The translations under genes and the position numbers were made by a program. A model generated the notes under the pieces. That model was given only the letters and a program-made list of their open reading frames with translations, did not search any database and had not been told where the DNA came from. Positions 6,386-57,281 of a DNA stretch of 64,000 nucleotides are shown here, in pieces; position 1 is the first letter of the stretch; the number at the start of each line of letters is the position of its first letter. Source of the stretch: Corynebacterium amycolatum SK46 (GTDB lineage: Bacteria; Actinomycetota; Actinomycetes; Mycobacteriales; Mycobacteriaceae); contig NZ_ABZU01000003.1 of assembly GCF_000173655.1 (NCBI RefSeq), positions 1-64,000 on the forward strand, read 5' to 3'.

Positions 6386-6387
6386 CT

Positions 6388-7940: not shown

Positions 7941-8511
7941 ACGCATACGCTTTTCGGAGTTCCATCACTTTTCGGAGCGGCTTTCAAACAAGAAAAACAT
8001 CGGGCAGCCCCTCGAGTGACGATTACGGAGAAGGTGCGTCCACCTTCCCTCTCGTCACCGAGGGGCTGCCCGTATTTTTGCTGGATTCTCTAAAAGCAGA
8101 CTCCAATACCCCCAGCTTTTTAAGACTGCGAGACTGCCGAAATGGGGTGACCCGGCAGACAGAAAAACTAACGCTGAGGATGTCATGGTCTGACAGCTCA
8201 GTGACCCAAAGCTAGCTGTACAAGCCACCGCTAGGTCCGTGCGTATCCCCAAACTACGGCCAATTACGCCCCTATTTCTAGGAGCATGATTTGCCCGCCC
8301 TCCCCTTCGAGAAACGACGGATAATTTTCTGTTGGAAGTGATAATAACGCCGTTATTTCTGCAGCGCACGCCGGAAATAGAATTATCTTTAAAGCGCTGA
8401 ACTACTGGGGGTAGCCATAAGTACCGGCCGCAATTTAGAACCCAAAATACCCCACGTAAACGCCATTACTATAACGAATTGATAATGACACCTACGGGGG
8501 TATCAAATGCG
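7941..8511. other. 571-bp intergenic region after znuB
   Basis: Holds the zinc-operon terminator (8001-8072) and then about 430 bp, AT-richer than its surroundings towards its right end, with no open frame showing a ribosome binding site or recognisable protein. The convergent rlmB gene ends at its right edge. Confidence 0.5.
8001..8072 (+). terminator. Long hairpin terminator after the zinc operon
   Basis: A 14-bp perfect outer stem (CGGGCAGCCCCTCG with CGAGGGGCTGCCCG), continued inside by GTGACG/CGTCAC and GAAGGTG/CACCTTC, is followed by TATTTTTG. This is an intrinsic terminator for znuABC. Confidence 0.85.
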
Positions 8512-9456: not shown

Positions 9457-9513
9457 AGCTACCTGCTTCCTGTTGTTAATAGTTTTCTCTAGCCTAAAGC
9501 CAGCTTTTCAGCC

Positions 9514-40685: not shown

Positions 40686-41714
40686 CTACGGGGTGAAGCC
40701 GTAGTTGAACAGAACCCAACTAATTGGGTCCATGCAACGGTACGGGGCAATCCCCGTTTCCTGAATATGTGAGCCCTTTGGTGGTGCACCAAGTGCCGAT
40801 GTCGCAAAGTACCGACACCGGTGCAGATTCCGCCCAAAGTAGTTATTAAATGAGTTGACCAGAGTTTTTGCGTCCAATTTAATCAACAAACTCTCGACCT
40901 CGTAATGCAGGAGCTGAGAGTCGTGATCGTCATAGTTAAAACCGTTGTCCCGTCGGTAAGCGGAGCCATAGTTGCCCATAATCTGCGCCCACTCACTGTT
41001 TTCAACTGATTCAAGGCTCTGCAAAGTATCGAATTTGGACAGTGCAATCCCAAAGCGAGAGTGGTTGTCCACGTTGAGAACGCGTGTAAGATTCTGCAAC
41101 ACCTTGCTCGGGTCACCGCCGAGTGCAGATTCCGAAATAAAGCCCTTGAGGTAGTTCTTAATCTGCGGAACCTTTAGCGGGTCAAAGAGGAAAAGGATTT
41201 CATCGGCATAATTGAAGAAATCCAGGCGCGAAGTGTCCTCTGGCAGATTTTCCAAATCTTCGCCCGCGACATCACGAATAACAATAAAGAAGTTGCGATT
41301 CTCATTCGTGCTGCGGTCGAAATGAACCCCAAGATGATAAATTAGCGGGTCATGCTGATAGGCATCAGAACTGCTATACGACGGGGTCGGTGGCATAAGG
41401 CCACGTTCTTCAAATAGCGGAGTTTCGTAATTGGTTTCGTAGCGCTCCTGCGTAGTTTCATCCGCAGGTTCGACTACAAATCCAAATTCTTCGCCCATCT
41501 GTTGCAGGAGTTTCACCAGCACGCCGATGTAAAGGGACTTCCCCGATGCTCGAGCACCGGCGAGTGCAATACAGACAGTCGCTGCGTTTTGCCATCCTCG
41601 GGGAAGATCGCGGTCAACGTACTCACTGCGCTCGGCGTTTGGGTCTGACAATGGTTTAAAAGTCCAAGGACAGCGCGTGACAGCGCTAGTCAGAAGCGTT
41701 GGATTGTTGTTCAT
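40686..41714 (-). CDS. TRAFAC-type GTPase (DO-GTPase2-like)
   Basis: 342 residues. Walker A GARASGKS (53-60), switch II/Walker B IRDVAGED with the D-x-x-G motif (148-151), and SKFD (226-229) where most GTPases have NKxD, so guanine specificity may be relaxed. A FLFDPLKVP strand follows Walker B, as in DO-GTPases of predicted conflict systems. The N-terminus may carry a Cys-rich remnant (only TRCPW is visible). It is the last gene of the ten-gene operon and directly follows the degenerate vWA gene and the GAP1-like gene, a gene neighbourhood known for this GTPase family. Family name is from memory and not searched. Confidence 0.8.
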   Translation of the reverse strand: MNNNPTLLTSAVTRCPWTFKPLSDPNAERSEYVDRDLPRGWQNAATVCIALAGARASGKSLYIGVLVKLLQQMGEEFGFVVEPADETTQERYETNYETPLFEERGLMPPTPSYSSSDAYQHDPLIYHLGVHFDRSTNENRNFFIVIRDVAGEDLENLPEDTSRLDFFNYADEILFLFDPLKVPQIKNYLKGFISESALGGDPSKVLQNLTRVLNVDNHSRFGIALSKFDTLQSLESVENSEWAQIMGNYGSAYRRDNGFNYDDHDSQLLHYEVESLLIKLDAKTLVNSFNNYFGRNLHRCRYFATSALGAPPKGSHIQETGIAPYRCMDPISWVLFNYGFTP

Positions 41715-41720
41715 CTTTCA

Positions 41721-43001
41721 CTACCTCCAATTCCCTGGAAACTGACTGTCATTGGGGAAGGGAGTTTCCGAATCACCAGGAAACTCATTGCCGGCGAACG
41801 GCGCGTCCGGAAAACTTGGACGGCTCTCCCCCTGCTGAGATGGCTGTGGATCGAAGCCACCAAAACTGGGCACATCGATATTAGGACCAGATGAGAATCC
41901 CCTACCCGGGACATCAGGAGTGGGATTGTTATCCAATCCTGGAACTGGGAAAGCCGGTGGTTCGATGTCACCGAAGTCAGTTGTGCCGCGCAGCTTTCGC
42001 CGACTGTGCGCCGTCGGTAGAGTCCCCTGAACAACAGTTGCGATTGCTTCGCTCACAATCTTCAGCGGATGCTGCATACCAGAAGCGCTGTCAGCAGCAG
42101 TCACCGGAGCAGACAGTCGACTTTCAAAAGTGGAACCGATGTTGACGATGGCACTGTTGTTGCCTTCTACTGGAATATCCACAGGGTTATCTCCCAGTAC
42201 CAGTGCAACGGCATTGGACTCCGCTAATTCGACTACAGCAGGCGCGACGTCGGAGATGACGAAAGTCAGGTGGCTCATACCGTCACCGGAGTACTCGGCC
42301 CCGCCGACGTACCGATGGCCTTGCTTCACAATCTCAACGACGCGGGATTCGAGCTTTTCTAAGCTTACGCGCTCAGTTCCATCGTGCCCCCAACACAATT
42401 CCACGCTATCTAGAGATGAGCACGCGGCGACGGAGCCGGTGATTACGTTAACTGCCTGCGGAATCAATCCAATAAGAGCCGGCGTGGCCATAGCCGCACC
42501 GCAATCGAGGAAGACCCTAACACCCATACCATCAGGCAAATACGAGTTAGAGGCATCAATCATCGGACGAAGATTAGAACGAACGATACCACCCAACCCG
42601 GCCACGCTCTGTCCAACCGAAGTATTGGCAGTGGAAACTTCTAACCATCCGTCATTCCGGGTGAGAGTGGCAATACGAAGTGGTGAATTGTCACTCAACG
42701 TCGCTGGCGGGAATTCGATAATCTCCTCCGCACTCGAACCACGACGGCCACTGCTAATCTGCACCGTGGCGGAGACTGCATTGGAGAAGTCCGTACCACT
42801 ACCGGGCTGAATGCTAACGCTAATCTCTCCGTTACATTCTAACAGCTTAAAAGCCGAACCCGACATGCGGTTATAGCGACCTTCGCCCTCTAAATTGAGC
42901 TCAGCGGGAACGTTCGAACCGGCGGTGACTACCCGGACCTCGAGCATGCCCTCCATACGGAGCCGAGTGGTCGTGCCTGGGACTAATTGGCGAAAAGACA
43001 T
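41721..43001 (-). CDS. Degenerate vWA-domain protein with disordered aromatic tail
   Basis: 426 residues from ATG 43001, with AAGGAG 5-10 bases upstream. N-terminal ~130 residues form a beta-rich domain (LVPGTTTRLRMEGMLEVRV). Residues ~155-300 look like a vWA fold (YLPDGMGVRVFLDCGAAMATPALIG), but the metal-site motif DxSxS is changed to DCGAA, so metal binding is probably weakened or lost. The last 70 residues are Pro/Phe/Gly/Asp-rich (NPTPDVPGRGFSSG, FPNDSQFPGNW) and disordered. It lies 6 bp before the GTPase gene. A scaffold role for the GTPase is inferred. Confidence 0.7.
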   Translation of the reverse strand: MSFRQLVPGTTTRLRMEGMLEVRVVTAGSNVPAELNLEGEGRYNRMSGSAFKLLECNGEISVSIQPGSGTDFSNAVSATVQISSGRRGSSAEEIIEFPPATLSDNSPLRIATLTRNDGWLEVSTANTSVGQSVAGLGGIVRSNLRPMIDASNSYLPDGMGVRVFLDCGAAMATPALIGLIPQAVNVITGSVAACSSLDSVELCWGHDGTERVSLEKLESRVVEIVKQGHRYVGGAEYSGDGMSHLTFVISDVAPAVVELAESNAVALVLGDNPVDIPVEGNNSAIVNIGSTFESRLSAPVTAADSASGMQHPLKIVSEAIATVVQGTLPTAHSRRKLRGTTDFGDIEPPAFPVPGLDNNPTPDVPGRGFSSGPNIDVPSFGGFDPQPSQQGESRPSFPDAPFAGNEFPGDSETPFPNDSQFPGNWR

Positions 43002-43024: not shown

Positions 43025-45655
43025 TCAGTACTGACGGGAAACGTCGTTGGCACGACGTGTTAGAGGACTGATTCCCGGGATTTCCAGCTTTGCAATGTAC
43101 TTGTTCTTTAGTTCAATCCGCGAAACGCTCTTGTCACGCTGTGCAGCAGGTAGAGATAGTGCGAGGTCGTCAAACAAACTTTCTTCCATAAAGTCGATTC
43201 GCCACCATGGCAAGTACAACGACTTTGCTAGCTTCCGATTATTGAGCGACTGGTACGCATCCTCGATAGCCCAGCAGGCTAACGACACAAACGCACCGTA
43301 GAGAAGTGGATCACTCTCGATGGGTCCAAAGAAGATTCCAGAAAGCTTGGACAGTCGAACCTCGGAGTACAAGTTCTTAGGAAATAGCGGACTGCATTGA
43401 TGTTCTTCTTTAATCCAGGAGCTTATTTCTGCGGGTGTTGCTCCCGCTAATACAGCCAATTCTTGATCAGTAAAAGGCGTGACCGTATGGTCTGAACGCT
43501 CGGTTTCACACTCTTGTTCCACAGCGCCCTGACCCCACGCCGACCGCGTCCCAAAGTCCACGGTCTTCTTGCCCGTAATTTCCGCTGCCGTCCTACCTGG
43601 GCGGCGCCCCGGACTGTGGGAGCTCGAACTGACCGGCGCGAAGTCCGACTCAGGTTGCGCAAATTCAGCCTGCTTAACATTAATGCTGCCGTTTTGTGAC
43701 ACCGAACCGCTAGGTGTTTCCCACGTGGTCGGTATCTTTTCAGGCGCGGGCGGTGCAGCCGCGGACTGCGCGGCCTCGGGCACATTTCGCCACATTCCAA
43801 GCGCAAGCACATCTTTGCCCTCTGCAGAGAGCAATGACTTCGCATCACGAATGGCAGGGGTGAAAATGGAAATATTCTCCTGCCAACCGGGGCCTTCGCT
43901 ATCCAGGACAGTCTCAATTGAGTTCAGCCCAAAAGCGATAGCTCGTGACTCATGAGCACCCAGCGCAGGGGCCGTCGTCACGCCAAAATCAGAATTTTCA
44001 GGACCGATACTGGTGGAAAAATCGCTGCCAAAACTCGGTTCTGTGAAGGAAGGATCAGAGAAACCACCGGTGAACGGATCCTGGCCCTTCGGCTGCGAAT
44101 TGCTGTCTGCCACCTTTCCCAGTGCCCATGCTGAGACCAAGAGCGCATCCACCAAGTCAACCGCACGGTGATTCCTATTCTCAGCTGCGCTCAGAACTGT
44201 TGAGCTCAGCGAGAGTGAAAACTCATCCAACCCCAACCACTTAGAGACGTTAGGGTCGAGTGCCTTGGCATTGACGACGTGCTGGTAGAGGCGATCATCC
44301 TCGCTGACCAACTGCTGTAGGATTTTTTCAATCTTGGCACCGGAGCGAGGCAGCGCCCGAACTTGATAGCAGTCCTCGAACACGAGATCCAGGAAGTCTG
44401 ATCCACGGATAGCTTGCTCAATCTCTTGCTCTGAAAGCAGCCCGAGTGTTTCCCACTTCATCAGCTGCCTGTGAAGTTCCGGAAAGCGACGCGAGCATAA
44501 ATGGCTCGGACCGAATTCCGTCAGCAGCTTGTCAAAAACACTCTCATTCAGATTTGCTGGCAACGGGCCAGCCGCAATCTGCTGACGGATAGGCTCTCGT
44601 AGATAACGAAGCATTCCGTCATCCATGACAGCTTCCGACACAAGATGCCAGGAAGGATGTCCCTGCTCGTTAGTCTCGACCGCATTACGGCTTTTTGCAC
44701 TGGCCGAATCGGCATCAAAACACTGGTATTCAAAGAGGACTTCCCAGGCTGAGACAGGAATCTTGGTTCCGTTCAAGATGTGAACAGCACCCTCGCCGTC
44801 AATGTTTTGGACATTGGGTTCTGTATCCGTACGAATACAGATGACATCGTGGTTCGCCGCAGCTGCGTCATAATCCTCAAGAGGAACACAGACAACTTGA
44901 TATCCGGCCTCCACCGCTCGGGAAAGGTTACGGGCACGCTCAAAAGTCGACCAGTTCATAGCTGAGAGAGAGGCTGGTGACGCGCTCAGGAACAGAGCTG
45001 AAAGCCAGAACTTCGCTTCCTGGTTGGGGCATGCGATTGCCACTACCCGCTGTTGTGTAGAGAGCTTCAATACATGATTGACAGCGCTCAATACTGCACG
45101 GTGCACGGCGGCGCGATCGACTGGCGAGCCATCGTCAAAAATCCAATTCCACACATTTTCCGGAATGGCGCAAGGGCCCTTGTGGAGCTGGCCGTCCAAC
45201 GCGGGGATTGAGTTTACTTCCTGCGGCCCAAAAGGCGTCAGCAGGCCGTCCGAATCAAGGAAGTCGGTTGCTCGCTGTCCGCCGAACCCACCGCGCAGAA
45301 CATATGCCTGGGTGAAAACATTTCCACGGCGTCCCGTCGCATCTTCACCGACCGGCGTTGAGTAGATAAATACCCTGTCCTCGGGGTGCCCTGACTGCTG
45401 CCAAGGAGCGTCCAAGACCGCGGTACGCCGATCCATTGCCGCAATTTCATCTCGGTTTGGATACTTTGGAATCTCGATCGGTGAATCAATGACGGTCGGG
45501 ACGACCTCAACCAACGCCTTGGACTCAGCGTCGTTGAGACCCGCCTGCTGACCGATTCCCCAACCGGATCGACGATTGTTTTGGAAAGAGGCGAAAGTCA
45601 AAAAACCCTGCGCCATTATTTCTTGTGCCATCGTTTCTTGCTCTTCCCTCATCAC
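43025..45655 (-). CDS. GAP1-like GTPase-associated protein
   Basis: 876 residues. The N-terminal region (GFLTFASFQNNRRSGWGIGQQAGLN, then YSTPVGEDATGRRGNVFTQAYVLRG) matches the GAP1 N-terminal domain pattern: a Gly-Trp-containing first strand and a Gly-Arg-x-Gly-Asn-x-Phe block. A large helical middle and an internal Phe/Gly/Pro-rich segment (GGFSDPSFTEPSFGSDF) follow, and then a C-terminal domain with an Ala/Glu/Leu-rich helical end. In predicted conflict systems GAP1 accompanies DO-GTPases, as here two genes later. ATGA overlap with the upstream gene. Exact biochemical role is unknown; control of the GTPase is inference. Confidence 0.72.
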   Translation of the reverse strand: MMREEQETMAQEIMAQGFLTFASFQNNRRSGWGIGQQAGLNDAESKALVEVVPTVIDSPIEIPKYPNRDEIAAMDRRTAVLDAPWQQSGHPEDRVFIYSTPVGEDATGRRGNVFTQAYVLRGGFGGQRATDFLDSDGLLTPFGPQEVNSIPALDGQLHKGPCAIPENVWNWIFDDGSPVDRAAVHRAVLSAVNHVLKLSTQQRVVAIACPNQEAKFWLSALFLSASPASLSAMNWSTFERARNLSRAVEAGYQVVCVPLEDYDAAAANHDVICIRTDTEPNVQNIDGEGAVHILNGTKIPVSAWEVLFEYQCFDADSASAKSRNAVETNEQGHPSWHLVSEAVMDDGMLRYLREPIRQQIAAGPLPANLNESVFDKLLTEFGPSHLCSRRFPELHRQLMKWETLGLLSEQEIEQAIRGSDFLDLVFEDCYQVRALPRSGAKIEKILQQLVSEDDRLYQHVVNAKALDPNVSKWLGLDEFSLSLSSTVLSAAENRNHRAVDLVDALLVSAWALGKVADSNSQPKGQDPFTGGFSDPSFTEPSFGSDFSTSIGPENSDFGVTTAPALGAHESRAIAFGLNSIETVLDSEGPGWQENISIFTPAIRDAKSLLSAEGKDVLALGMWRNVPEAAQSAAAPPAPEKIPTTWETPSGSVSQNGSINVKQAEFAQPESDFAPVSSSSHSPGRRPGRTAAEITGKKTVDFGTRSAWGQGAVEQECETERSDHTVTPFTDQELAVLAGATPAEISSWIKEEHQCSPLFPKNLYSEVRLSKLSGIFFGPIESDPLLYGAFVSLACWAIEDAYQSLNNRKLAKSLYLPWWRIDFMEESLFDDLALSLPAAQRDKSVSRIELKNKYIAKLEIPGISPLTRRANDVSRQY

Positions 45656-47913
45656 CCAGCGACGAATTGGTTGAAGGTATCCAGCAAGATGCGCCGCGGC
45701 ATGTGCTCATCTTGGGCCTCGTCCTGAATGAACAGGCGCAGTCGACCGCCAGTTGTGGGGTCGAATTCCTGGTCGCGAAATCCCACAAAGAAGCAGTTCT
45801 CAGCAGCGCGTGCTTCGGCTTCACTACCCGGCAAACGCTCTGGGGAAAGAATTGCCCCTGGCTCCGACACCAACTGGCCATCCAGATTCCTGACCGTCGA
45901 AATCTGAAGTTTTGCAGCTCCCATGTCATTGGCATCCGTCTCTGCCAGCGGTAGACGGGCGGGGTGATAGACACCGACGAAGCTCGGAGGATTCAGGTCC
46001 TCTCCGTCTTCCTTCCAAATGAAGACCTTGAATCCAATCCCCTGAATGATTTCCATGCTGTAGAAGTACTTTGCAAGCCCCGGGTAATCCAGCTGAAGAG
46101 GCGTAGATGCAGTCTCTCGGCCGGCAAATGTGCTCAGTGGTGTCAGAAAGACCGTCTCCCCGTCTGGGTTTAGGTTCAGTCGGACCCCACCATCTCGGAT
46201 ATAGCGGCCGCGATCGAGCTCAGCGCGTGTCTCGCGGTACGAATCACCACCGGTACCTCGTGGAGCAACTTCCACCCGAACAATGTCCGCACCCTGTGGC
46301 CACACAAAGTTAATAATCTGCTGGGACGTGCGTTCGACGATAGTCGCCTCCGCAACTTCGCCTACCTGCTGCAATACTACGGACTTGCCCACGACGGCCT
46401 CGTCGTTAAGCACTGTAATCGGCGTAATGTGCAGCTCGGTCCACCCCGATGGCCACGATGCAGTTTCAGTCCTGGAAATGCCGTCCTGTGTCCACGGATC
46501 CTCGATTGCCTTGTGCCCTTCGGCGATGGCGGGATCGTAATCCAGGGCGGACTCCGGGACCGTGGTGATGGTCAGATCGGTGCTCGGTGCCTTCGGAGTG
46601 AAGTAAATGCGTACGTTTCCAGCCGGTGGCGAGTACCACGAGAGGATAACCTTGTCGCCACGACCGCTGCTGTCATCGAGAAACGCATCGATTTCCGGCG
46701 CCTGCAGTACAGCCTTGACTTCGACGGTCTTGACCACAACTTTGCCCGCGACTTCGCTCTGACGGAACTTCACAAACGGCTTGAATGCATAACGCATCGT
46801 CTGACCGGTTGAATTGGTCTCATGTTTGAAGCTGTGGTTACTCACACCCGCCGGAAGACGAAACTCCGGCGAATCGACCCTGTCGCCTGACTTCTCCGGC
46901 GAAGCGAAAACCTGCACCTGGTCATACTGCTCGACGAAGTTCCAGTTGCCTTCGACGATGCCGTCAGAGCACTGCACCTCAACGCCTTCAACCGGGAAAA
47001 CCACCAGGTCCTCACCGATGAAGTACGGTTGCGAGTCCAGAATGTCGTTCAGATCTTCACCCGTATACGCCCACACTTGGTAGTGGCGAACGGCGACACC
47101 AGGATTTGCCTGCTCGACATACTCTTTGCCCTCGGTGACAATGATTTGCTGACCGAGATCAGGCGAGCATTCCACTACCCGATCCGAGGCCACGACACGG
47201 AAGACCGTGAAGATGTCATCCTTCGTAGGAAGAGTGCCCGGTGACCATGTAATTTCGACAGTCGAGGCCTCTTCTTCCTGGAAAATACGTGCCTTCACCC
47301 GTCCTTGCGGCTTCAGGGATTCCTCATCGTAGGCGAATTCCGCGAAGTCCTCCGCGTAAAGGTCGACGAAGTCGTTTTCGTCGACACGTGCACGCCTACC
47401 CTTTTCGCGCAACTCCTTGGCCTGTTTAGCCAGGTCGGACAGGCGCCTCTTCTTCGGCTGTTCCTCTTCCTCGTCCGCTGAATCGTCTTGCCCGGCATCG
47501 GCGGTGGCATCGTCAGACAGGTGCGGGTTTTCTGCCATCATCGACGGCACGGTGCTTTCCGACGGCACCTTCACCGAGCCCCCCTCCGATGCCTCAGTGG
47601 TAGCAGCGCTTGCGCCAGCATCCATTGGCATCGCTGCAGTGATCGAAGCCCACTCGTCTAGGCCCCCAGTTTCCCCACCGGCTGAAGCGGTATCTTCTAC
47701 AGCCCATTCGGCCGCCGCTTCGCTAGTAGTTGCAGCCTCCTCGGGCACAGCGCTGCCCTGGAAGCGCTGCCACAGCTCCTCGGCGTACTGCTTCTTAGGT
47801 CCGGGTAGCTTGCGGCGGATTGCCTCAACCGTCGGATTGTCCATTGATGCAATTGCAAGCAAAATGTTTTCGGGAATCTCCGAAAGCTGCTTGTCAAAAC
47901 TATGGTCGACCAT
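45652..47913 (-). CDS. Large beta-rich protein with acidic linker, unknown
   Basis: 753 residues. Residues 1-50 are helical (EIPENILLAIASMDNPTVEAIRRKL), residues ~50-190 acidic and disordered with a charged helix (RLSDLAKQAKELREKGRRARVD), and the rest consists of successive beta-sandwich-like segments of ~90 residues with fibronectin-III-like features (STVEITWSPG, DKVILSWYSPPAGNVRIYF, PQGADIVRVEVAPRG). There is no signal peptide, so the beta repeats are cytoplasmic. It probably is an adaptor in the complex. ATGA overlap links it to the GAP1-like gene. Confidence 0.72.
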   Translation of the reverse strand: MVDHSFDKQLSEIPENILLAIASMDNPTVEAIRRKLPGPKKQYAEELWQRFQGSAVPEEAATTSEAAAEWAVEDTASAGGETGGLDEWASITAAMPMDAGASAATTEASEGGSVKVPSESTVPSMMAENPHLSDDATADAGQDDSADEEEEQPKKRRLSDLAKQAKELREKGRRARVDENDFVDLYAEDFAEFAYDEESLKPQGRVKARIFQEEEASTVEITWSPGTLPTKDDIFTVFRVVASDRVVECSPDLGQQIIVTEGKEYVEQANPGVAVRHYQVWAYTGEDLNDILDSQPYFIGEDLVVFPVEGVEVQCSDGIVEGNWNFVEQYDQVQVFASPEKSGDRVDSPEFRLPAGVSNHSFKHETNSTGQTMRYAFKPFVKFRQSEVAGKVVVKTVEVKAVLQAPEIDAFLDDSSGRGDKVILSWYSPPAGNVRIYFTPKAPSTDLTITTVPESALDYDPAIAEGHKAIEDPWTQDGISRTETASWPSGWTELHITPITVLNDEAVVGKSVVLQQVGEVAEATIVERTSQQIINFVWPQGADIVRVEVAPRGTGGDSYRETRAELDRGRYIRDGGVRLNLNPDGETVFLTPLSTFAGRETASTPLQLDYPGLAKYFYSMEIIQGIGFKVFIWKEDGEDLNPPSFVGVYHPARLPLAETDANDMGAAKLQISTVRNLDGQLVSEPGAILSPERLPGSEAEARAAENCFFVGFRDQEFDPTTGGRLRLFIQDEAQDEHMPRRILLDTFNQFVAG

Positions 47914-47937: not shown

Positions 47938-50643
47938 TTATTGAATCGCTTGCAGCGAATCGAGATTGGTCAACCGCCCGTATTGAATCAGAGTCAACGT
48001 CCGCGAGAAGCCGGCGCCGCCGCTTTCTCCGGATCCCGTCCCAACGGTGGGTGAAGATGTGCCCTCCTGACTATCAACCACCCGAGAAATCTCTGGGTCA
48101 ATGTCGGTGGCTCCACTGTTCGCAGCCGAGAAGTTCACAGAACCATCGGCAAATGATGCGAGAAGCTCCTGCCCCTCGTTGTTCTTGCCAAAGGTCGCGA
48201 GAATATTCGCGGTCTCGATAGTGCGGGCACCCGACTCTTCCCAAATCTCCATACGGGAAGTCAGTTCCTTTGTATTGGCATCATCCTGATTACTAGCCAG
48301 GCAATCGCTCCAGGCTGCGCTCGCATCGACACGACGTGGTAAATCCGGGCTCTCAGCGACGTAAACCAGCTTGTCCAGCTGCGAACCTGAACCATAGCCC
48401 GGCATACCGGAGTAGTCATCAATCCCATACCGCGTCGAAACTGTGGCGCTCATCGCCGTGTTTGCGTCGTCGATGAGTCTGTTCAGCGACAGCTCTGCCC
48501 ATCCAATTGGGTATAGCTTATTGCGCAGCGTCTGCATCGAAGTTTTCATTGCCATGTCGCTTGCCTCTGCGCGGCCGATGACCGTTGCTCGGGGCAAGCC
48601 ACCTTCGGGAATCGACACTGGCGCGGTCTGATTCACCTGCATGCCAAATGGGAAGTTAATCGCGCGACCGAGCACTCGGCTCCATGCCTGGTGCTGAGCA
48701 TACGCATTGGTCGTGCGCTCGACTGCGGCAATCGCTCGCGCCAGGTTCCGGGACACAATTTCCTCTTGCTTCCGCAACAGCTGACGTTGCTGATTGCGCT
48801 CGTACAATCCGCGGCGCGCACGTGCGTAAAGCAGCCACTCGGTCACCAACGCAATGATTGTCGAAACGATAACCGCGGTAAGGCCCCACGGCCAGCTCAG
48901 CTCAGCAAGGTTGCCGTGAATCTTCCAATCCGGATTAATTCCGCCGAGCACCAGGTAAATCATCATAATGACGAAGAACAGCCAACCCCAGGTAATCGAC
49001 CGCATCGCACGCAGCAAACGCTTATCGACGCCATCGTCACCCGCTCCCAGCTCGCGAAGTTTACGCTGAATATCGTCAAATTCTTGACGGAATCGGGCGA
49101 CATCTTCATTAGCCTTGTAAATGAACCCCATGAGCTCGTTGCCAACTGCCCAACCGAAGCTGCGGGAATTGTTGCGCTTCCAGACCCGGAAGTCTTCCTT
49201 CTTCTGAGTGAGACTGCGATCGGTTGACTGCTTGGCAGCCCGATCGATGTGACGCTGGTAAATCTCGGCGCTGAACGGATCGAATGGCGCGACCGTAGTG
49301 TTCGGCAAATTCTTGCCGAACTGCGCATTCAGTACAGAATGCGCACCATCAAAGGATTCGCTGGAGTCAACAACGGAGAACCGTGTGTTCGACAGCACCG
49401 TCGGGTTCAGGTCGCTCCACCCCACCGGCGCAAAGTTCTTTGAGTTCTTACGCTGCTCAGCATCTACCAAGGTCAGAGCGCATTCCTGGTAGGTCCTCCA
49501 CATAGCTGCAAGCTGATCTGGCGGCCCCACACGGAACTCGTTCGTGTTCTGGTTGGCAATCTGCTCACGCAGCTTGGCACTGACATCGTGCATCTGCTCA
49601 ACAGTGAAGTTGCGCTGCTTACCAGAGTGATTACCGCAAACTACCTCAATCTGCGATTCCTGCCCGTACAGCAAATTCTGCATACCGCTGGCGAATGCCG
49701 ATTGGCCAGAGGACTTCATTGCGTTACCCCAGTCAGATGGGGAACCGATTACTGCACGGAAGAAGAAGCTCAAAAATGCTTTAAAGGTCTGCCACGCGCT
49801 GACCTGGACAGACTCCAGTTTTGCGGCTGGCTCGTAGTCTTCGAAAAGCGACTTTCGGGACACATCACTGAAACGCTTAGTGATACCGGAAACGACCTCA
49901 TCGGAATCAACGGCCACGGTTACCGGTGTGCCGCGTGACGACGTCGGCTGCGGAATCGAATCACGTACGTTAAGTGCACCCTCGCGGACGAGTGATTCAA
50001 TCTCGGTGGCATCGATACGGCGGTGGTACACACGGACAAGTCGAGTGCTGCTACCCGATTCGGTGTCTAGGCGACCTGCGTTGAGGTCACCTAGAACCGG
50101 TACCTCGTTCATTCCCTCCCACAGGCCGGTCAAACCTGCAATCGCTGGTGCAGCATAGCGTGCCAATTCTGCCGGGCCATCACTGCGATACTTGGCAGTC
50201 TGCGGAGCGGATGGCGTATCGGAGTCCTCTGCTGCCAGAACCAACCGAGGCCAACCCACGATTGGCTCAATCGGCCGATTGATCAGCGGCAGACGCGACA
50301 GAATCAGGTGAAGTCGCTTCGTATCGACCTTCGATGAGTGGATTATGTCTGCCCAGCGATTAATTCCCGTTTCGCTGAGGTACGACCCCTCGTCTTCGAT
50401 GTCATCGAGCGCGACGAGCAATACCTGCTTGCAGTCTCGTACGACAGCCGCGATGGACCGTGGTTCTTCGACAAGCCCCTCTGCCGCACTGTGCTCGTAG
50501 ACCTCGACACTGTCGCCTTCCCTGTCGGGGTTAACCCACAACAATTCCGGAATGAGACCGAGTGCTGTGAAGTCAATCAGCGCCGAGCGAATGGCATTAG
50601 CACCAGAGCCACTACCGAGGAGAATTACCTTGTTTTCCATCAT
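47938..50643 (-). CDS. Membrane protein with glycine-rich Rossmann-like N-terminus
   Basis: 901 residues. The N-terminus MMENKVILLGSGSGANAI, then ELLWVNPDREGDSVEVYE, has the strand-Gly-rich loop-helix-strand pattern of a nucleotide-binding Rossmann or tubulin-type fold and is similar to the start of the tubulin-like neighbour. Two transmembrane helices (about 551-568 and 584-607) are followed by a basic helix (YERNQQRQLLRKQEEIVSRNLARA) and a helical C-terminus. Start overlaps the tubulin-like stop by one base (TGATG), so the two proteins are made together. Proposed role: membrane anchor for the tubulin-like partner (inference). Confidence 0.75.
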   Translation of the reverse strand: MMENKVILLGSGSGANAIRSALIDFTALGLIPELLWVNPDREGDSVEVYEHSAAEGLVEEPRSIAAVVRDCKQVLLVALDDIEDEGSYLSETGINRWADIIHSSKVDTKRLHLILSRLPLINRPIEPIVGWPRLVLAAEDSDTPSAPQTAKYRSDGPAELARYAAPAIAGLTGLWEGMNEVPVLGDLNAGRLDTESGSSTRLVRVYHRRIDATEIESLVREGALNVRDSIPQPTSSRGTPVTVAVDSDEVVSGITKRFSDVSRKSLFEDYEPAAKLESVQVSAWQTFKAFLSFFFRAVIGSPSDWGNAMKSSGQSAFASGMQNLLYGQESQIEVVCGNHSGKQRNFTVEQMHDVSAKLREQIANQNTNEFRVGPPDQLAAMWRTYQECALTLVDAEQRKNSKNFAPVGWSDLNPTVLSNTRFSVVDSSESFDGAHSVLNAQFGKNLPNTTVAPFDPFSAEIYQRHIDRAAKQSTDRSLTQKKEDFRVWKRNNSRSFGWAVGNELMGFIYKANEDVARFRQEFDDIQRKLRELGAGDDGVDKRLLRAMRSITWGWLFFVIMMIYLVLGGINPDWKIHGNLAELSWPWGLTAVIVSTIIALVTEWLLYARARRGLYERNQQRQLLRKQEEIVSRNLARAIAAVERTTNAYAQHQAWSRVLGRAINFPFGMQVNQTAPVSIPEGGLPRATVIGRAEASDMAMKTSMQTLRNKLYPIGWAELSLNRLIDDANTAMSATVSTRYGIDDYSGMPGYGSGSQLDKLVYVAESPDLPRRVDASAAWSDCLASNQDDANTKELTSRMEIWEESGARTIETANILATFGKNNEGQELLASFADGSVNFSAANSGATDIDPEISRVVDSQEGTSSPTVGTGSGESGGAGFSRTLTLIQYGRLTNLDSLQAIQ

Positions 50644-53600
50644 CAGAATGGACCTCCAAACGGATTATCACCGGAATTATCCTGTTCACCCCAGTTAAAC
50701 GTAGGCTCGCTGGTCTCCGGACCGTCGAAACTGCCCCCGAACGGCTCATTCGGCTCACTCGGCTGGCTAGGTTTAGCTGGCTGGCTTGGCTGCACCGGCT
50801 GCGTTGGCGTAACCGGAGTTTCTGGTGATCCAGTCGCCCCTGGCATAGTCGGGGCTCCGCCGAACGACGGGATTGTCGGAACCTCGGGAGTGCTGTCAAA
50901 CGATTGCGTTGGTACAGCACTGCCCGGAACCTTCTTTGGTTCATACTGGATAGCTTCATCCAGACGACGAATCAGGTCATCACACATTTCGTAGACATCC
51001 TCAGCGATGTCCCGGAACAACGGCATGCTGGATGCCACGTTGCGGTCAGTAACTCGAGCAAATGGTCGTCCCTCTGGCATCGAACCTGGTAGCGCACCCA
51101 TTGGGTTCTTCTCAATGAAGTTCAAGCTCAGCTGTTGCCACTGCTTCAGGTAGTTTTCCGCGTTCTGTTTACGCTCTTCCTTGGTCCCACCGTATGGTGA
51201 CTGGCCGTGAACCCGATCTTGGCCGTCCTTTAGCCACTCGTGCAACACACGCACACCGGAAATAGCGATGCCGCCAGTCGTCGGACCTTGGTCGCCGTCG
51301 TCGTAAAGCCCACGGAGGAGCATGTACGGCTGCAGCGAATCGCCAATCTGACCGCCCATCGGGATTTCCTGCACATTGGCATAGGCCACGAAGATAGACT
51401 CCAAAACCGCTGGGAGCCAATCGTAGTCGGCCTTGAACTTAGTACGCGGAGTTAGCATGTGCTTAACAAACGGAAGCCATGTGTTTTTCTTGTCCGAGTA
51501 GATGTATGCGAGACCGTCAGGCTCGTTTGCGCCGCGGATGTAAATCTTTCCGGTGATCTGTCCGATAAACCAGCCACCGATCATTGCCCGACGCTCCTCG
51601 CGGGACATGGGCAATGCAGCTGCTAGTGGGCGGGCACGACGCAGTGTCCAGAATTCGTCGAGTTGCCCGCGCAGACTATTAATCTGCTTACCAATCGCTG
51701 GAAACAGCGAGCTGAACACAATCGGCGAGTAGTTCGGGTACGCGCCGAAAACAGTAAAGGACTGCAGATGATCAGCAGTGTTGAGCGACTTTTCGAACTC
51801 CCCCTGAGACGTCTGGCTAATGCTCGATGACGACGTGAGTGTACCCAACAGGGCATCCTTGGCTTCCAGTCCGTTGAACGGAATTTCCGAGAACTTGAAG
51901 TTGTAGACCTCGTTGGAGTTGCCGTAGACGCGTCCCAGCATTTCCTTGCTGATTGACGCCAGCGGCAGAGCCAGCGTCAGGCACTCATAAAATGCCGTGC
52001 GCAGGCGCGACAGACGCTCGTTGTACACGGTGTCATTCGGGGCCAGTTCACGACTGAGGTAGTGACGCAGGCCCATGCTGATGAACTGCTCAAACGGCTC
52101 ACCCGGGCGTGCCAGCCACTGACGGGAGCGCTCCAGCAAGTCTGTCGGGCGCAGTTTCACTTCGAATGCGCCTGGGCGCGGGTCACGCTTTTCGACGCGC
52201 CCCAGTGGGTCATCGAGCAGGTCGCGAGCGACCCAACCCGCACGGTTACCAATGAAGTCCGAGCGCTCGGGAAGCCTTGCAGCCAAGGTATCCTCCGGAG
52301 CCTTGTGACCACCGGTGGTTTCCCACATGCCGAGGATGATTTCGCGAATAGCTGCCTGAGTTGCCTGCTGCAGGTTGAGCTGCTGGCCGTCAGTATCCGA
52401 CATGGTTTTGGTCAGGTGTGCCTCGTAGTCGCGTGGGAACTCCTCGACCTTGGTAATTAGCTTGACATTCTTCGATTCGAAGAAGCGGTCAGCAACCAAC
52501 TCGTCACCGTCTGAAGGCCAAAGTGTGGGCTCATCGGTGGTGACGTCGGCAAGCTTGGTGGACGTCGGCTTGTCCTTGGCCTTGGCTTCGAGATCCTGGT
52601 GCACATTTTCCAGCTGACGGGACAGCGGCATCAGGAAGTTGTTGCGGAAGTCCTCTAACACAGGGGCAAGACGTGCAGCGACGCACATCCAGAAGTGCTG
52701 CTGAAGCAGCGGCTCGAAACTCTGAATAATCTGGTCGGAAATCTGGACCGAGTTATTCACACTACCGCGACCGTTCAGCGGTGCCAGGAGCTGCTCCAGC
52801 TGTGGGGTCGGAGCAACCGGGTTGTGCGAGTTAGCAGCTTGTCCAAGCTGTCGCAGTGCGTTAATCAAACCGTCCTTGAGCAGGAGGTTGACGTTCTTAA
52901 TCAGAGCTTCTGCATAGGCCAAACCGTATTTGGACAGATCCTTTTCCAGAGTGCGCAGGAGGTTGTCCGCAAATGGGTTGGAGAACTCAAAGACGGCCAC
53001 CGAGGCAGCGCGATCAATCGTGTGATGAACCTCGCCCGCAGACTGCGCGAGACGCTGACGAACCAGGGATGCCCACTCCGCAGACTTCATACCGTCCGCA
53101 GCCGGAATTCGGGAGTGCAGCAGGCCCTTCGCCTGCTGTGTCACATTGCGGGTGGGTACACCAAATAGTTGTGGAATCCACTGCTGGACTGCCCCGCTGT
53201 TCGGCGCCGACGGCAGCCAGCATTCATGGAAGAACTGTGCCTGCTGCTCGTGGACGCGGCGTTCGAGCTGCTCCGATGCGGTGGCGGGGTCACTCTTGTC
53301 AAAGTGTCCCTCCAGAAGGTGGTCAAACACCGTGCGAGAAAGACGCTGCGCTGAGTATTCAGCGAAACGGTCGCGGCCCATGCTGAGCTCTGCAAAGCCC
53401 ATGGAACCCCACGGAATGAGCTCCCACTTAGTCTCATCGCTAGAACCCCAACCCAGCAGAGAACGGTCGCCCGCCTCCACACCGGTATTACCCAGGTCAT
53501 ACTGGACGAAGCTGTTTGAGGCTGCATCCGAGGTCATCAAAGCTGCCAGCGATCGTGCCAGACCACGGTAAATATCCCCCGGGCTGCCATCACCGAACAG

Positions 53601-54455
53601 GGACTTCTGCGCACCCGCGCGGGCACCAATCGGGAACAGACGGTTGAAAGTAGCGGTATCCGAGTGGCCGGAAATTCCCATCGCCTGCAGCAACCGCTGG
53701 TCGTGCTCAACCGCAGTGCCAGCCTGCGCTGCAAAGGCCTCGCCAAACATTGCAAGCGCATTGCCGCGAGTACCGGTCATCTTGTCCGCGTTAACAGCTT
53801 CAAAGACCTCCGGGGTGAACATAAACACGGCAGTCTTGCCGGATTGCACACCGTCGATGCTGCTCAGGAGGCGGCAGACATCGAATGCCATCGAAGCGCC
53901 GGTGCCACCGGCCATGGAGCTAATCACGAAAACAAGTGGAGTTTCCTTCGTAGCGTCCTGGTACTGACCGGTAACCTTCGTGTTCAACTCGTTGAGTTCA
54001 GAGTTGGTCTCAACCTTGTTTAAGGTCTGCACGGCAGCCTCAAGGCCATCGCGCACTTCCTTGAAGGAATTAATGGCGAGCATACGGCCAATGGCACGGT
54101 ACTGACCAGCACCATCGGAAATCGGTGTATTGCGAGTACGTGGGTTGCGGTCGGCCCACGTAGCGACCTCTCCCAAGGCACCAGCTTGACCGAGCTTGCG
54201 AGACAGGCCTGTGTCGAACTCGTTATAGTGCTGGCGATTACCAACCGAGATGTAGCTGCCGCCGCTCTGCTTGACATTTGGCACGTCGTACTTCTCCGCC
54301 TCCAGCGGAGAGTCGATGGAAACAAACTGCCACGCTGCCGGCAGTCGGTCGATTTCTGGGTCGACTCGGCGGAGGTATGCCTTCAGCTGGTCAATCATGT
54401 AGGCCTGCGTCTTGGCGCCAGATCCGCCACAGCCGACGATCAGAAACTTCTTCAT
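50643..54455 (-). CDS. Giant tubulin-like protein (Tubulin_2-type)
   Basis: 1270 residues from ATG 54455, with GAAAGG upstream. N-terminal GTPase-type fold: glycine-rich loop GCGGSGAK (8-15), then the tubulin signature MAGGTGASM at about 181-189 (the GGGTGSG motif with the first Gly as Ala and the last as Ser), as expected for the Tubulin_2 (PF13809) family. The rest is long and mostly helical with no transmembrane span. The C-terminal ~70 residues are disordered and Pro/Gly/Phe/Trp-rich (EPFGGSFDG, EPTFNWGE, NPFGGPF). Tubulin_2 proteins occur with vWA and conflict-type genes in actinobacteria; polymerisation is unproven. It sits between the vWA gene and the membrane-anchor gene. Confidence 0.85.
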   Translation of the reverse strand: MKKFLIVGCGGSGAKTQAYMIDQLKAYLRRVDPEIDRLPAAWQFVSIDSPLEAEKYDVPNVKQSGGSYISVGNRQHYNEFDTGLSRKLGQAGALGEVATWADRNPRTRNTPISDGAGQYRAIGRMLAINSFKEVRDGLEAAVQTLNKVETNSELNELNTKVTGQYQDATKETPLVFVISSMAGGTGASMAFDVCRLLSSIDGVQSGKTAVFMFTPEVFEAVNADKMTGTRGNALAMFGEAFAAQAGTAVEHDQRLLQAMGISGHSDTATFNRLFPIGARAGAQKSLFGDGSPGDIYRGLARSLAALMTSDAASNSFVQYDLGNTGVEAGDRSLLGWGSSDETKWELIPWGSMGFAELSMGRDRFAEYSAQRLSRTVFDHLLEGHFDKSDPATASEQLERRVHEQQAQFFHECWLPSAPNSGAVQQWIPQLFGVPTRNVTQQAKGLLHSRIPAADGMKSAEWASLVRQRLAQSAGEVHHTIDRAASVAVFEFSNPFADNLLRTLEKDLSKYGLAYAEALIKNVNLLLKDGLINALRQLGQAANSHNPVAPTPQLEQLLAPLNGRGSVNNSVQISDQIIQSFEPLLQQHFWMCVAARLAPVLEDFRNNFLMPLSRQLENVHQDLEAKAKDKPTSTKLADVTTDEPTLWPSDGDELVADRFFESKNVKLITKVEEFPRDYEAHLTKTMSDTDGQQLNLQQATQAAIREIILGMWETTGGHKAPEDTLAARLPERSDFIGNRAGWVARDLLDDPLGRVEKRDPRPGAFEVKLRPTDLLERSRQWLARPGEPFEQFISMGLRHYLSRELAPNDTVYNERLSRLRTAFYECLTLALPLASISKEMLGRVYGNSNEVYNFKFSEIPFNGLEAKDALLGTLTSSSSISQTSQGEFEKSLNTADHLQSFTVFGAYPNYSPIVFSSLFPAIGKQINSLRGQLDEFWTLRRARPLAAALPMSREERRAMIGGWFIGQITGKIYIRGANEPDGLAYIYSDKKNTWLPFVKHMLTPRTKFKADYDWLPAVLESIFVAYANVQEIPMGGQIGDSLQPYMLLRGLYDDGDQGPTTGGIAISGVRVLHEWLKDGQDRVHGQSPYGGTKEERKQNAENYLKQWQQLSLNFIEKNPMGALPGSMPEGRPFARVTDRNVASSMPLFRDIAEDVYEMCDDLIRRLDEAIQYEPKKVPGSAVPTQSFDSTPEVPTIPSFGGAPTMPGATGSPETPVTPTQPVQPSQPAKPSQPSEPNEPFGGSFDGPETSEPTFNWGEQDNSGDNPFGGPF

Positions 54456-54502: not shown

Positions 54503-57271
54503 CTAGCGGTTAAATCCGCCATTATTGTCCTGCTGATCGGTTCCCCAACCGGAGTCAGACCAGCCACCACCGGCGTTCTGGTCCCAGCCACCGGACGCGG
54601 AGTTATTCCCCGAATCACCTACTGCGCCCCACGCCTGTGTGGACGTGTCGTCGCTGTTATCGGAAACCTGTCCATCGGCCTGTCCCCAACCAAACCCGGT
54701 ATCGGATCCGTTGCTGGCTCCGTTTGCAGGCATACCCCAACCGGAATCCTGCTGGCTCGGAGTCTCAGGTGCAGGGGTCTGGCCCCAACCGCCGTTATTT
54801 TGTTCCGGGGCGGCGGACGCTCCAGGGGCCGTCGCAAAGCCAGACGCGGCAGCCCCCGGCGCACCGCCAGTGCTTGACGACGGCGCCCCTTGCTCGCCAA
54901 CCTGTTGCGCGAGCTTGGTAATACGGCTCGCGCCCTTGCTCTGGATTTCTTCGACCACGGTGGCGAGATGCTCGGGCGACATGCTCTCATCACACAGCAG
55001 AATGATGGCCTGATCTGCCGGGTTATTCTGATCCACATATGCGAACCAGCGGTTGTGGACGGCCAGTGGCAGGGAGGCTCGGCGGCCGACCTGTTTGCCG
55101 TCATCGCTGACACTTGCTTCAGCATCGACAACTGCCTGCACCGGTGCCAGCGGGTTCCATCCGGTACGTACCTTGATTGGCAGACCTGCGGCATCAAGGG
55201 ATTTGCCCGTCGACTTAGTGCGCACAGCGTTGATGAAATCATTCTGGTAATCAACGTCAAACTCGCGTCCGGTGTCCTGTCGCAGCAACTGCGAGTCGCG
55301 CGCAGACACTGGAATACGCAGTACGTGAAGACCCGGATTTGTCGGAATCTTACCGGTCAGGAAGCGAATCAGGTAGAGCAGACCAATGGGGATAAGCAGG
55401 CCGAGTAGCAGCACAATAACGAGCGTGGCACCGAAAACGACCTTGTTAACCGGCGCGTTGACAGAACCGTTAACAGTAACCTGCGCTGGGGATCCTTCCT
55501 TGCCGTCGGCATCCTTGAACGCGACCGGCACGAGTGCTCCATTAATTGGGGCATCGACTGCCTTGTCGACCTTCGTGGTGACCAGAATCTTTCCTGTTTC
55601 ACCCTTGCCGAGCTTCAGCGGGCTCGCGGAATCATGATTTGCCGAGTAGTTAATCTGGGTGCCGTTGGTGTCGATTGCGCCGGGCTCAATCCACACCTCG
55701 CCCGGCCCCGTGACAGGAATCTCAAAGCTGCCTTCGGTGCCCTTCATATTCAAGATCGCGGAGCCCGGAATGTTTGGTGCATTGGCCGGCACGATGGAAA
55801 TTGGCTTTTCATAGACGATTGGCTTTAGCTGCGTACCAGACCCATCACCAGAGGGCTTAGTAGCAATCATGGCGTTAAGACGCAGCGTGCCCCGCACGGC
55901 ATCGTCGATATCCTGAAGTGGGATCTCAACTCGGCCGGTGTGGATGTCGTGGTTACCCAACGGAACCGTTGTACCGTCTTCACCAACGATTTCAGCGGTC
56001 AAATCCGCGGTGCCTTCAAGGCCGTGCTGCTGGCCTTCCTTGTTCAACAAGCTGACGGCCAGCGGCTGATCGGACTTCAGCGATAGTGCCGAGCTATCAT
56101 CGCTGCCATCAACTGCGATGGAAAGGCCAGGTTCAATCGTCATTTTGACGTGGTACTTGCCTTCCGACGACTCTTGTGGCTTGTACCCAAAGTTCCACTG
56201 TCCAGCCCACTCGTCAGCACCCTTGGCTAAATCGATGTCATAGCCACCCGGGACGTTGACGTTTTCGACAACGTTGACTTCGTTGCCCGCGACTGTCTGG
56301 GCGCCGGACTTGAGTTCAACCTCTTTCCCATCGGGGCCCGTGAGAACTGGAGTCAGCTTGTCAGCTCCCTCGACTGCAGAATCTGGCTGCGCGCTGATGC
56401 GAACATTGTCAATCGAATTGTCGAGCGTAAAATCCTGCTTTTCGGTCAAACTGCGCTCAGCTTCAACAGATCCACCGTTGGGAACCATTTGACGGAAGGC
56501 TGCCAAAAGTTCACCGGGGTTGTTGGCGAACAAGTGCTGACCACTCGGGGCGCTGTTCGAGCAATCCCCCTCAGAAATGCGGCGCAAGTCAGGGGTGTCC
56601 GTTGCGGACTTCTCCGGCGCCAAGCCGACTGTGAAAATCAACGTATCAGCTGCACGGAGACGTCCAACTGCGCCTTCTGGTCGGCAGACATCCTGCATTA
56701 CAGCCTCTGCGCCACCGGCTTCACGTGTAGGGAAACCATCGCTGAAAAACAGGATCGCCTTACAGTCTGATGTGCCATCGCTCACCGCTTCGGCGGCGCC
56801 ATCCAAACCCTTGGCGTAGTCGGTGTATTCGCCGTCCGTGCGGTCCTTAAACGCTTCGATATCACGGTCTACGTTCGTGCCGTTTCCTTCAATCGCAAGC
56901 TTCTGCCAACCACCGTGAGGCAGATAGTCGTCAGCAAAGCCACCGAGTTTGATATTAATTGCGGCCTTGTTGTCATCGGCGTAACGAGCCATCTCACGCG
57001 CAAAGTTCATCGCTGCATCGACACGTTTTCCTTCAGCGTCAGTCGCCTGAGGGTTAGACCCCTTACCAACAAGCGATCCAGTCTCGTCGATTACAAGCAA
57101 AATGTCAGCGCTTTTCGAACCCTGGATACACGCGGCCAGACGCTGAGCTGCGTTCTGATTCGTGTCCGGGTTCTCCTGGGCATTGGCAAAGGTACCGAGG
57201 CTCGAGGACACAATGGCCGTAGATGCCAGAACGCCAGTGGCCAGGACCTTTTTATAAAAAGTTTTAGACAT
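54503..57271 (-). CDS. Secreted, membrane-anchored vWA-domain protein
   Basis: 922 residues from ATG 57271 (AGGAA seven bases upstream). Sec signal peptide (about 1-31, FANA-Q), then a von Willebrand A domain with metal site DETGS (Asp 62, Thr 64, Ser 66) and FFSDGFPT. Large beta-rich extracellular region follows, then a transmembrane helix (about 611-637, VVFGATLVIVLLLGLLIPIGLLYL) and a 285-residue cytoplasmic part ending in a disordered Gly/Trp/Gln tail (GGWDQN, GWSDSGWGTDQQ). No LPXTG or sortase, so it is anchored by the helix. It could sense extracellular ligands and signal to the tubulin-like protein inside (inference). Confidence 0.85.
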   Translation of the reverse strand: MSKTFYKKVLATGVLASTAIVSSSLGTFANAQENPDTNQNAAQRLAACIQGSKSADILLVIDETGSLVGKGSNPQATDAEGKRVDAAMNFAREMARYADDNKAAINIKLGGFADDYLPHGGWQKLAIEGNGTNVDRDIEAFKDRTDGEYTDYAKGLDGAAEAVSDGTSDCKAILFFSDGFPTREAGGAEAVMQDVCRPEGAVGRLRAADTLIFTVGLAPEKSATDTPDLRRISEGDCSNSAPSGQHLFANNPGELLAAFRQMVPNGGSVEAERSLTEKQDFTLDNSIDNVRISAQPDSAVEGADKLTPVLTGPDGKEVELKSGAQTVAGNEVNVVENVNVPGGYDIDLAKGADEWAGQWNFGYKPQESSEGKYHVKMTIEPGLSIAVDGSDDSSALSLKSDQPLAVSLLNKEGQQHGLEGTADLTAEIVGEDGTTVPLGNHDIHTGRVEIPLQDIDDAVRGTLRLNAMIATKPSGDGSGTQLKPIVYEKPISIVPANAPNIPGSAILNMKGTEGSFEIPVTGPGEVWIEPGAIDTNGTQINYSANHDSASPLKLGKGETGKILVTTKVDKAVDAPINGALVPVAFKDADGKEGSPAQVTVNGSVNAPVNKVVFGATLVIVLLLGLLIPIGLLYLIRFLTGKIPTNPGLHVLRIPVSARDSQLLRQDTGREFDVDYQNDFINAVRTKSTGKSLDAAGLPIKVRTGWNPLAPVQAVVDAEASVSDDGKQVGRRASLPLAVHNRWFAYVDQNNPADQAIILLCDESMSPEHLATVVEEIQSKGASRITKLAQQVGEQGAPSSSTGGAPGAAASGFATAPGASAAPEQNNGGWGQTPAPETPSQQDSGWGMPANGASNGSDTGFGWGQADGQVSDNSDDTSTQAWGAVGDSGNNSASGGWDQNAGGGWSDSGWGTDQQDNNGGFNR

Positions 57272-57281
57272 CAACGAGTTC

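Follow-up and report, generated by a model that had tools for sequence, protein, structure and literature searches.

A membrane-anchored partner of a Tubulin_2 protein in Corynebacterium and the C-terminal peptide that the two proteins share in most species

Introduction

Tubulin_2 proteins form a divergent branch of the tubulin superfamily, whose roles, in the literature consulted, are only predicted. In its section on tubulin systems, the study of Kaur et al. (2020, eLife, PMC7159879) describes an actinobacterial theme in which a tubulin, GAP1-N2, a DO-GTPase and a vWA protein are encoded in one operon, together with two FNIII proteins, one carrying HRDC and the other vWA and membrane segments. 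An earlier survey by Makarova and Koonin (2010, PMC2875224), in the portions consulted, defines an FtsZ-like 1 (FtsZl1) family with vWA/GTPase operons and mentions the vWA gene cgR_2627 of C. glutamicum; FtsZ-like proteins bearing the Tubulin_2 model have been traced to that work (PMC9871819, in part). Here we analyze such an operon from Corynebacterium amycolatum SK46, contained in a window of 64,000 nucleotides (positions 1 to 64,000 of contig NZ_ABZU01000003.1, the whole stretch of DNA that was analyzed), and focus on P901, a 901-residue protein encoded directly behind the Tubulin_2 protein.

What the locus has in common with the theme of Kaur et al. is an actinobacterial operon that combines a tubulin with GAP1-N2, a DO-GTPase and a vWA protein. 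The vWA match in the window is weak (expectation value (E) 0.0013, below the Pfam cut-off), and no FNIII or HRDC domain was detected. Hits to PF19993, PF20013 and PF13809 all lie above their cut-offs, and the order of the DO-GTPase, GAP1-N2 and tubulin genes is kept wherever a fetched locus extends over the three of them. The operon corresponds to the tubulin-bearing actinobacterial type of GAP1-N2/DO-GTPase systems. The section on tubulin systems in Kaur et al. (PMC7159879) names neither a large tubulin neighbor with two transmembrane segments nor common tails.

Results

P901 accompanies Tubulin_2 and carries a membrane hairpin

Profile searches of 201 Corynebacterium genomes detected Tubulin_2 in 64 and P901 in 63, all of the latter among the former. 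In the sole Tubulin_2 carrier without P901 (G070), the tubulin gene runs off the end of a 3072-base contig. The two genes are patchily distributed across the genus, present or missing as a pair. Gene neighborhoods were compared in 43 loci, namely the window, a locus from the same species that matches it at 99% (L013), a Rhodococcus plasmid locus (L014) and loci from 40 other Corynebacterium genomes. P901 lies directly behind Tubulin_2 in 42 of these, the exception being the G070 contig. All 42 pairs (window and L013 both counted) share one strand, and their spacing is -4 to 0 bases in 36. The overlap of stop and start codons reported in the preliminary description of this DNA is real, amounting in the window to one base (TGATG), and like the pairing of the genes it exceeds chance. 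The elements of the two proteins are as follows.

47938..50643, minus strand: P901, the 901-residue membrane partner of the tubulin-like protein, an open reading frame (ORF) with an ATG start
50590..50616, minus strand: GSGSGANAI, residues 10-18 of P901
48940..48996, minus strand: predicted membrane helix 1 of P901, 19-residue window from residue 550 (Kyte-Doolittle 1.98)
48829..48885, minus strand: predicted membrane helix 2 of P901, 19-residue window from residue 587 (Kyte-Doolittle 1.96)
48574..49236, minus strand: region of the P901 hairpin, together with helices predicted on either side of it and the stretch AYxQFLSxSxxLGxxxxxPFG, from the family alignment
47941..47964, minus strand: P901 C-terminus LDSLQAIQ, without the linker and tail of most relatives, from comparison of C-termini
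50643..54455, minus strand: Tubulin_2 (FtsZ-like) protein, 1270 residues (PF13809, E 3.2e-44)
54408..54434, minus strand: T1-type loop GCGGSGAKT, residues 8-16 of the tubulin-like protein
50646..50672, minus strand: C-terminal tail GDNPFGGPF of the tubulin-like protein, after a proline-rich stretch, from comparison of C-termini

For the window P901, neither Pfam nor NCBIfam yielded a family at E ≤ 1, nor did PADLOC at E ≤ 0.01, and searches of viral and phage collections with this protein, the window Tubulin_2 and the P901 of one relative gave no match. The two membrane helices of the preliminary description are present; they lie about 530 residues beyond the N-terminal glycine motif and thus not immediately behind it. 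When membrane segments were called as 19-residue Kyte-Doolittle windows at a cut-off of 1.6, 27 of 41 family members had two hydrophobic segments, 13 had one and one had three; at a lax cut-off of 0.8 the segment pair was found in all 41. Net charge in the window protein amounts to +1 ahead of helix 1, -1 across the 18-residue loop and +4 past helix 2, a sequence pattern that makes both termini probably cytosolic. The AYxQFLSxSxxLGxxxxxPFG stretch that follows the hairpin contains several invariant residues, and conserved residues continue well beyond the hairpin. Over the family, mean column identity is 35% for P901 and 60% for the tubulin domain.

The reading of P901 as a membrane-anchored partner of the tubulin-like protein within the genus, already advanced in the preliminary description, is well supported because co-occurrence, adjacency, the stop/start overlap, the membrane hairpin and a covarying C-terminal peptide all bear on it.

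Matching C-termini of Tubulin_2 and P901 in most species

In most species, the Tubulin_2 and P901 proteins of one genome terminate in closely similar peptides of six to eight residues, preceded by a variable linker. Examples, with Tubulin_2 given before P901, are MPGEDLF/MPGEDLF (L050), DLDDTF/DLDETF (L037), LPGQGEF/LPGTGEF (L051), MPGLD/LPGLD (L056) and FGGLV/FDGLV (L040). Similarity was scored by ungapped BLOSUM62 over the last six residues, with shuffling as the null, in 41 loci (L013, from the same species as the window, was dropped). The score is 16.15 within genomes and 2.72 for Tubulin_2 against P901 across species, and none of 2000 shuffles reached the observed value. It is also higher than the 4.52 of Tubulin_2 against Tubulin_2 across species, and Tubulin_2 against 631 other C-termini gives -7.09. 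Individual genomes score at least 8 in 28 of 41 cases, compared with 1.5% of background pairs. The tails of five other operon proteins (vWA, GTPase, GAP1, the protein at the FNIII/HRDC place, hereafter FN3, and a 235-residue protein, F235) show no such coupling.

Shuffling does not remove shared ancestry. Among 21 representatives below 55% identity, a dereplicated set that reduces the effect of ancestry without removing it, the scores are 12.5 within and 0.03 across genomes (0 of 5000 shuffles). A second set, in which 16 of 17 genomes were usable, gave 19.0 within, 8.8 across and 9.9 for Tubulin_2 against Tubulin_2; nine of the 16 belong to the single tail type DLDxTF, and 11 score at least 8. 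The match extends to wider relatives of the family, with pairs such as PRSRA/PRSRA (L088), GTRA/GTRS (L089) and DVLA/DVRA (L087); five loci score between 6 and 24, where the cross mean is -1.65, and the tails PEGGTF/GGDLVF of L086 lie outside the scored loci.

The match is limited to about the last eight residues and is strongest at the final two, with identities of 78% within and 29% across genomes at position -1 and of 76% and 18% at position -2. Identical tail residues use the same codon in 68 of 152 cases, where 71.6 are expected; because codon sharing is no higher than expected, it is the peptide, not the DNA, that is kept matched. Of the 41 tubulin-like proteins 39 end in F, I, L, M or V, as do 37 of the 41 P901 proteins, and tail types change across species (PGEGEF, DLDETF, GGLI, and PRSRA in the wider relatives). 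Genome-wide, the pattern LD[DE]TF-stop occurs exactly twice per genome in four of four genomes, at the ends of Tubulin_2 and P901. A PG-type pattern, from which true ends escape because tails with an initial CTN leucine are not covered, gave 16 matches in 10 of 15 genomes, 13 of them inside the operon; the other three fall at the end of a 10-residue frame, at the end of a 57-residue frame and at a place without a stop codon.

P901 does not resemble a degenerate tubulin

The preliminary description took P901 for a degenerate paralogue of the tubulin-like protein, on the strength of GSGSGANAI near its N-terminus. The motif is there, preceded by the hydrophobic stretch VILL, and it does run parallel to GCGGSGAKT at residues 8-16 of the tubulin-like protein. 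The proposed paralogy finds no support. Gly12 is the sole near-invariant glycine of the motif (98%), and GSGSG is for that reason not a conserved nucleotide loop. The family shows GxG in 33, GxGxG in four and GxGxxG in three of 41 members, compared with GCGGSG in 41 of 41 aligned tubulin-like proteins. As background, 322 other ORFs of more than 300 residues from the same loci, some of them not real genes, contain GxGxG within residues 4-22 in nine cases and GxG in 65. The corresponding loop of wider P901 relatives reads, for example, APHLHT, ARFSSP or LPSGE, and by eye five of six such relatives (L086-L088, L093, L094) lack GxG there. The T4-like motif GG[TSAG]G occurs in one of 42 P901 proteins versus 42 of 42 tubulin-like proteins.

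Tubulin, Tubulin_2 and FtsZ profiles gave no match in 41 P901 N-terminal regions at E up to 10, in scans where the HMMER filters discard most weak matches. In full-length hhalign comparisons the P901 and Tubulin_2 families aligned with a probability of 0.3%, a test that lacks power because the FtsZ-Tubulin_2 control likewise gave just 0.4%. Among the profile-profile comparisons, only that of the first 60 residues carries weight, with 40.6% for FtsZ-Tubulin_2, 0.25% for P901-Tubulin_2 and 2.2% for FtsZ-P901. Against solved structures, the P901 N-terminal profile had one match, a peptide synthetase at E 0.2, and the intended positive control, the Tubulin_2 profile, failed to retrieve a tubulin at E ≤ 1. 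The best match of the full P901 profile, 7f02_D at the membrane segment (E 0.0053), was taken as chance. Two single-sequence structure models, predicted from the window protein alone, reached a predicted local distance difference test score (pLDDT) of 38 and 46, too poor for fold comparison; Foldseek with the second, similarly poor model, which we do not count as evidence, returned no matches at E ≤ 0.001, and no chain described as tubulin is among the best 50 of 202 matches. These low-confidence models suggest an alpha/beta N-terminus, on account of which a Rossmann-like fold is possible. Because the full-length FtsZ and solved-structure controls failed too, a very remote relation of P901 to tubulins is conceivable.

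Proteins at the P901 position outside the genus

Tubulin_2 was detected in eight of 200 genomes sampled at the order level, five of them with P901, and in 10 of 197 sampled at the class level, four with P901. In the nine Tubulin_2 loci without P901, a frame of 730-1033 residues lies behind Tubulin_2, and each of the eight counted has at least two hydrophobic segments. No homology of P901 to these positionally equivalent proteins of other actinobacteria was detected (best hmmsearch E 0.17, hhalign 0.1%). Matches over 49 positions in G225, G295 and G342, which are weak and come from genomes without Tubulin_2, were taken as spurious.

P901 relatives occur on two large Rhodococcus plasmids, with the remaining operon shown for one (L014). 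In L093 (positions 6292-9904, genome G472) a P901 relative is split into overlapping ORFs of 548 and 672 residues, both detected by the profile; the tail of the second is faintly like that of the tubulin (score 6). In L095-L100, Tubulin_2 loci of more distant actinobacteria, the gene behind the tubulin encodes a 915-1033-residue protein with hydrophobic segments and a conserved N-terminal V-x-hydrophobic-D-L-R strand, and four of the six end in Trp (ENPW, EDLW, SELW, GDPW), unlike the tubulin tail.

The remaining genes of the operon

The other members of the operon in the window are listed below.

54503..57310, minus strand: vWA protein (VWA_2); it has a single hydrophobic segment (residue 630), and its C-terminal tail is FG/GW-rich
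57282..57989, minus strand: F235, which has three hydrophobic segments and whose N-terminus is FG-rich and of low complexity, from its sequence
45652..47913, minus strand: FN3, the downstream protein that by position corresponds to the FNIII/HRDC component in Kaur et al., with no Pfam support for an FNIII or HRDC domain
43025..45655, minus strand: GAP1, with GAP1-N2 (PF20013, E 1.4e-9) and a weak GAP1-M (PF20014, E 0.0012, below cut-off)
41721..43001, minus strand: 426-residue protein, encoded between the GAP1 and GTPase genes; 36 of 41 loci have an ORF of more than 200 residues at this place
40686..41714, minus strand: DO-GTPase2 (PF19993, E 2.9e-7)

PADLOC models of known anti-phage families matched none of the eight operon proteins at E ≤ 0.01. 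The two operon membrane proteins with FG/GW-rich low-complexity tails were compared with their orthologues in L037-L075. The median density of F/W-G motifs per 100 residues is 5.9 at the N-terminus of the F235-position protein (first 110 residues, n=28) and 5.5 at the C-terminus of the vWA protein (last 110 residues, n=39), against a background of 0.9; a density of at least 5 is found at the C-terminus of 1.6% of 322 ORFs and at the N-terminus of none of 295. By eye, the 426-residue protein resembles a TerD-type domain in its first part and a degenerate vWA domain thereafter; it has no Pfam match. It is longer in the window than in its relatives, and only in the window and L013 among 36 loci does it bear an F/W-G-rich tail. 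Beside the GTPase end of the operon, on the opposite strand, a gene at 39281-40633 gives a weak TPR match; with BLAST at 1e-4, L013 is the sole fetched neighborhood to contain a relative.

Discussion

We propose that P901 is the membrane-side partner in a tubulin-type GAP1-N2/DO-GTPase system and that the tail common to both proteins is read by one factor, a proposal to which we give about an even chance. P901 would face the cytosol as a membrane dock and may hold the tubulin polymer there physically. One fast-evolving factor encoded in the operon, or else a groove of the tubulin-like protein, would read the peptide on both proteins; such a common reader would bring polymer and membrane partner together at one place, and the DO-GTPase and GAP1 could act as a switch. 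Since identity rather than complementarity is kept, direct pairing of tail with tail is less likely than a common receptor, and since the peptide diverges within a genus, that receptor should be fast-evolving and probably operon-encoded. The stricter idea, that the tail is a lineage-specific C-terminal 'password' by which the tubulin-like polymer and an unrelated membrane dock are matched per species and read by such a receptor or by the tubulin's own surface, is more tentative, and we would not bet on it at even odds.

Several observations weigh against this proposal. The window species itself departs from the rule, since its Tubulin_2 ends in DNPFGGPF and its P901 stops at LDSLQAIQ; the P901 of L013 likewise lacks the tail, and the tails of L043 and of the Rhodococcus plasmid locus L014 do not match. 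Just 28 of the 41 genomes reach a score of 8, and in several loci the match comprises the last one or two residues alone or an offset motif (e.g., PDFGGGLI/PDWDSLI). Position -3 has no excess of identity (46% within, 43% across). Where the next gene starts at least 11 bases after P901, the score is 9.4 (n=15) as opposed to 19.9 (n=25). The tail of the 426-residue protein is weakly coupled to that of the tubulin (-2.40 within, -5.60 across, 0 of 2000 shuffles, n=35), which counts here because shuffling leaves shared ancestry in place; these scores are negative in absolute terms, and against P901 188 of 2000 shuffles reach the observed value. Beyond the genus, Tubulin_2 often occurs without a recognizable P901 (three of eight carriers in the order sample, six of 10 in the class sample), and the tails are unmatched in the positionally equivalent proteins of other actinobacteria. 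Finally, no receptor for the tail was identified. A partial-distance-correlation scan, which left out the window, L013, L014 and L043, was best at columns 40-160 of the tubulin and 40-140 of the GTPase (r about 0.3-0.4); it has no null model and is partly circular, as the control distance contains the tubulin-like protein, so it was not used as evidence, and it points only weakly to the N-terminal domain of Tubulin_2 and the DO-GTPase as a lead.

Other explanations would account for parts of these data. The match could be a by-product at the DNA level, either of ribosome-binding sites for the next gene or of gene conversion: a further gene often starts immediately behind each of the two, and the match is stronger where the gap after P901 is short. 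We rejected both versions, which we find hardly credible, given the codon usage, the fact that the very residue beside the stop codon matches best, and the absence of such a tail from FN3, whose gene overlaps that of GAP1 in 32 of 41 loci (with the starts as chosen). If the tail were instead a degradation or processing signal that matches partner levels or releases both proteins together, its confinement to about the last eight residues and the preference for F, I, L, M or V at the end would be explained. Housekeeping proteases are conserved within a genus, however, and the tail varies from PGEGEF to DLDETF, GGLI and PRSRA. The two genome-wide pattern searches gave no further protein-like frame bearing the tail, so that any degradation reader would be a dedicated one, and we regard a degradation or processing signal as rather improbable.

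It is also conceivable, if unlikely, that P901 acts as an effector in the membrane: a SLATT-like pore, opened by the firing of the tubulin/GTPase switch, with the N-terminal domain as sensor. Effectors of the SLATT type with two transmembrane segments are known from GAP1-N2 systems (PMC7159879, in part), the two-segment hairpin appears to be flanked by helices in a low-confidence model, and P901 is less conserved than the tubulin domain. SLATT is not, however, among the best 25 of 86 families matched by 41 hairpin regions at E ≤ 10; the most frequent family among those listed is DUF2207_C (11 of 41, best E 0.0013), whose score of 18 bits in the window protein falls short of the cut-off, 33 bits. 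The conservation that reaches well past the hairpin also speaks against a pore, which would have no obvious need to carry the tail of the tubulin. Descent of P901 from a tubulin, highly improbable in our estimate, would be in keeping with a glycine-containing loop after the first strand, an acidic residue after the second and the two tubulin genes of firmicute systems (Kaur et al. 2020, PMC7159879, in part). It conflicts with the single near-invariant glycine, the loss of GxG in wider relatives, the near absence of the T4-like motif and both hhalign results.

A dedicated membrane partner with a matched tail offers a direct handle on the function of Tubulin_2 and on the receptor. The concerted evolution of one peptide on two unrelated proteins would present an unusually clean case of coevolution with a shared receptor, and the tail 'password', if true, would be a self/non-self style code for building a cytoskeletal structure at the membrane.

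As far as the literature was searched, the system is known in outline and the P901 family and its matched tails are undescribed; nothing closer was among the papers listed, and neither Kaur et al. nor Makarova and Koonin, in the parts consulted, describes the P901 partner. The FtsZl1 operons (PMC2875224, in part) resemble this one in combining an FtsZ-like protein with membrane-linked uncharacterized neighbors, and differ in that tails are not discussed in the portions consulted. Some families of Makarova and Koonin (2010) carry no label (A1-A2/B1-B9), and P901 may be among them.

At the level of architecture and principle, P901 invites comparison with two better-known arrangements. FtsZ is tethered to the membrane by SepF, FtsA and ZipA, and with these it has in common a tubulin-family polymer, a disordered linker, a short C-terminal peptide and a membrane anchor; the P901 anchor differs in bearing a copy of the tubulin's peptide and not, as far as is known, its binding groove. 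The closest principle, by analogy, would be the C-terminal EEVD shared by the unrelated chaperones Hsp70 and Hsp90; chemoreceptors similarly carry NWETF tails. In all of these, short C-terminal peptides on different proteins serve one reader. The EEVD and NWETF peptides are strongly conserved, whereas the peptide of P901 and its tubulin diverges across species and stays matched in most genomes.

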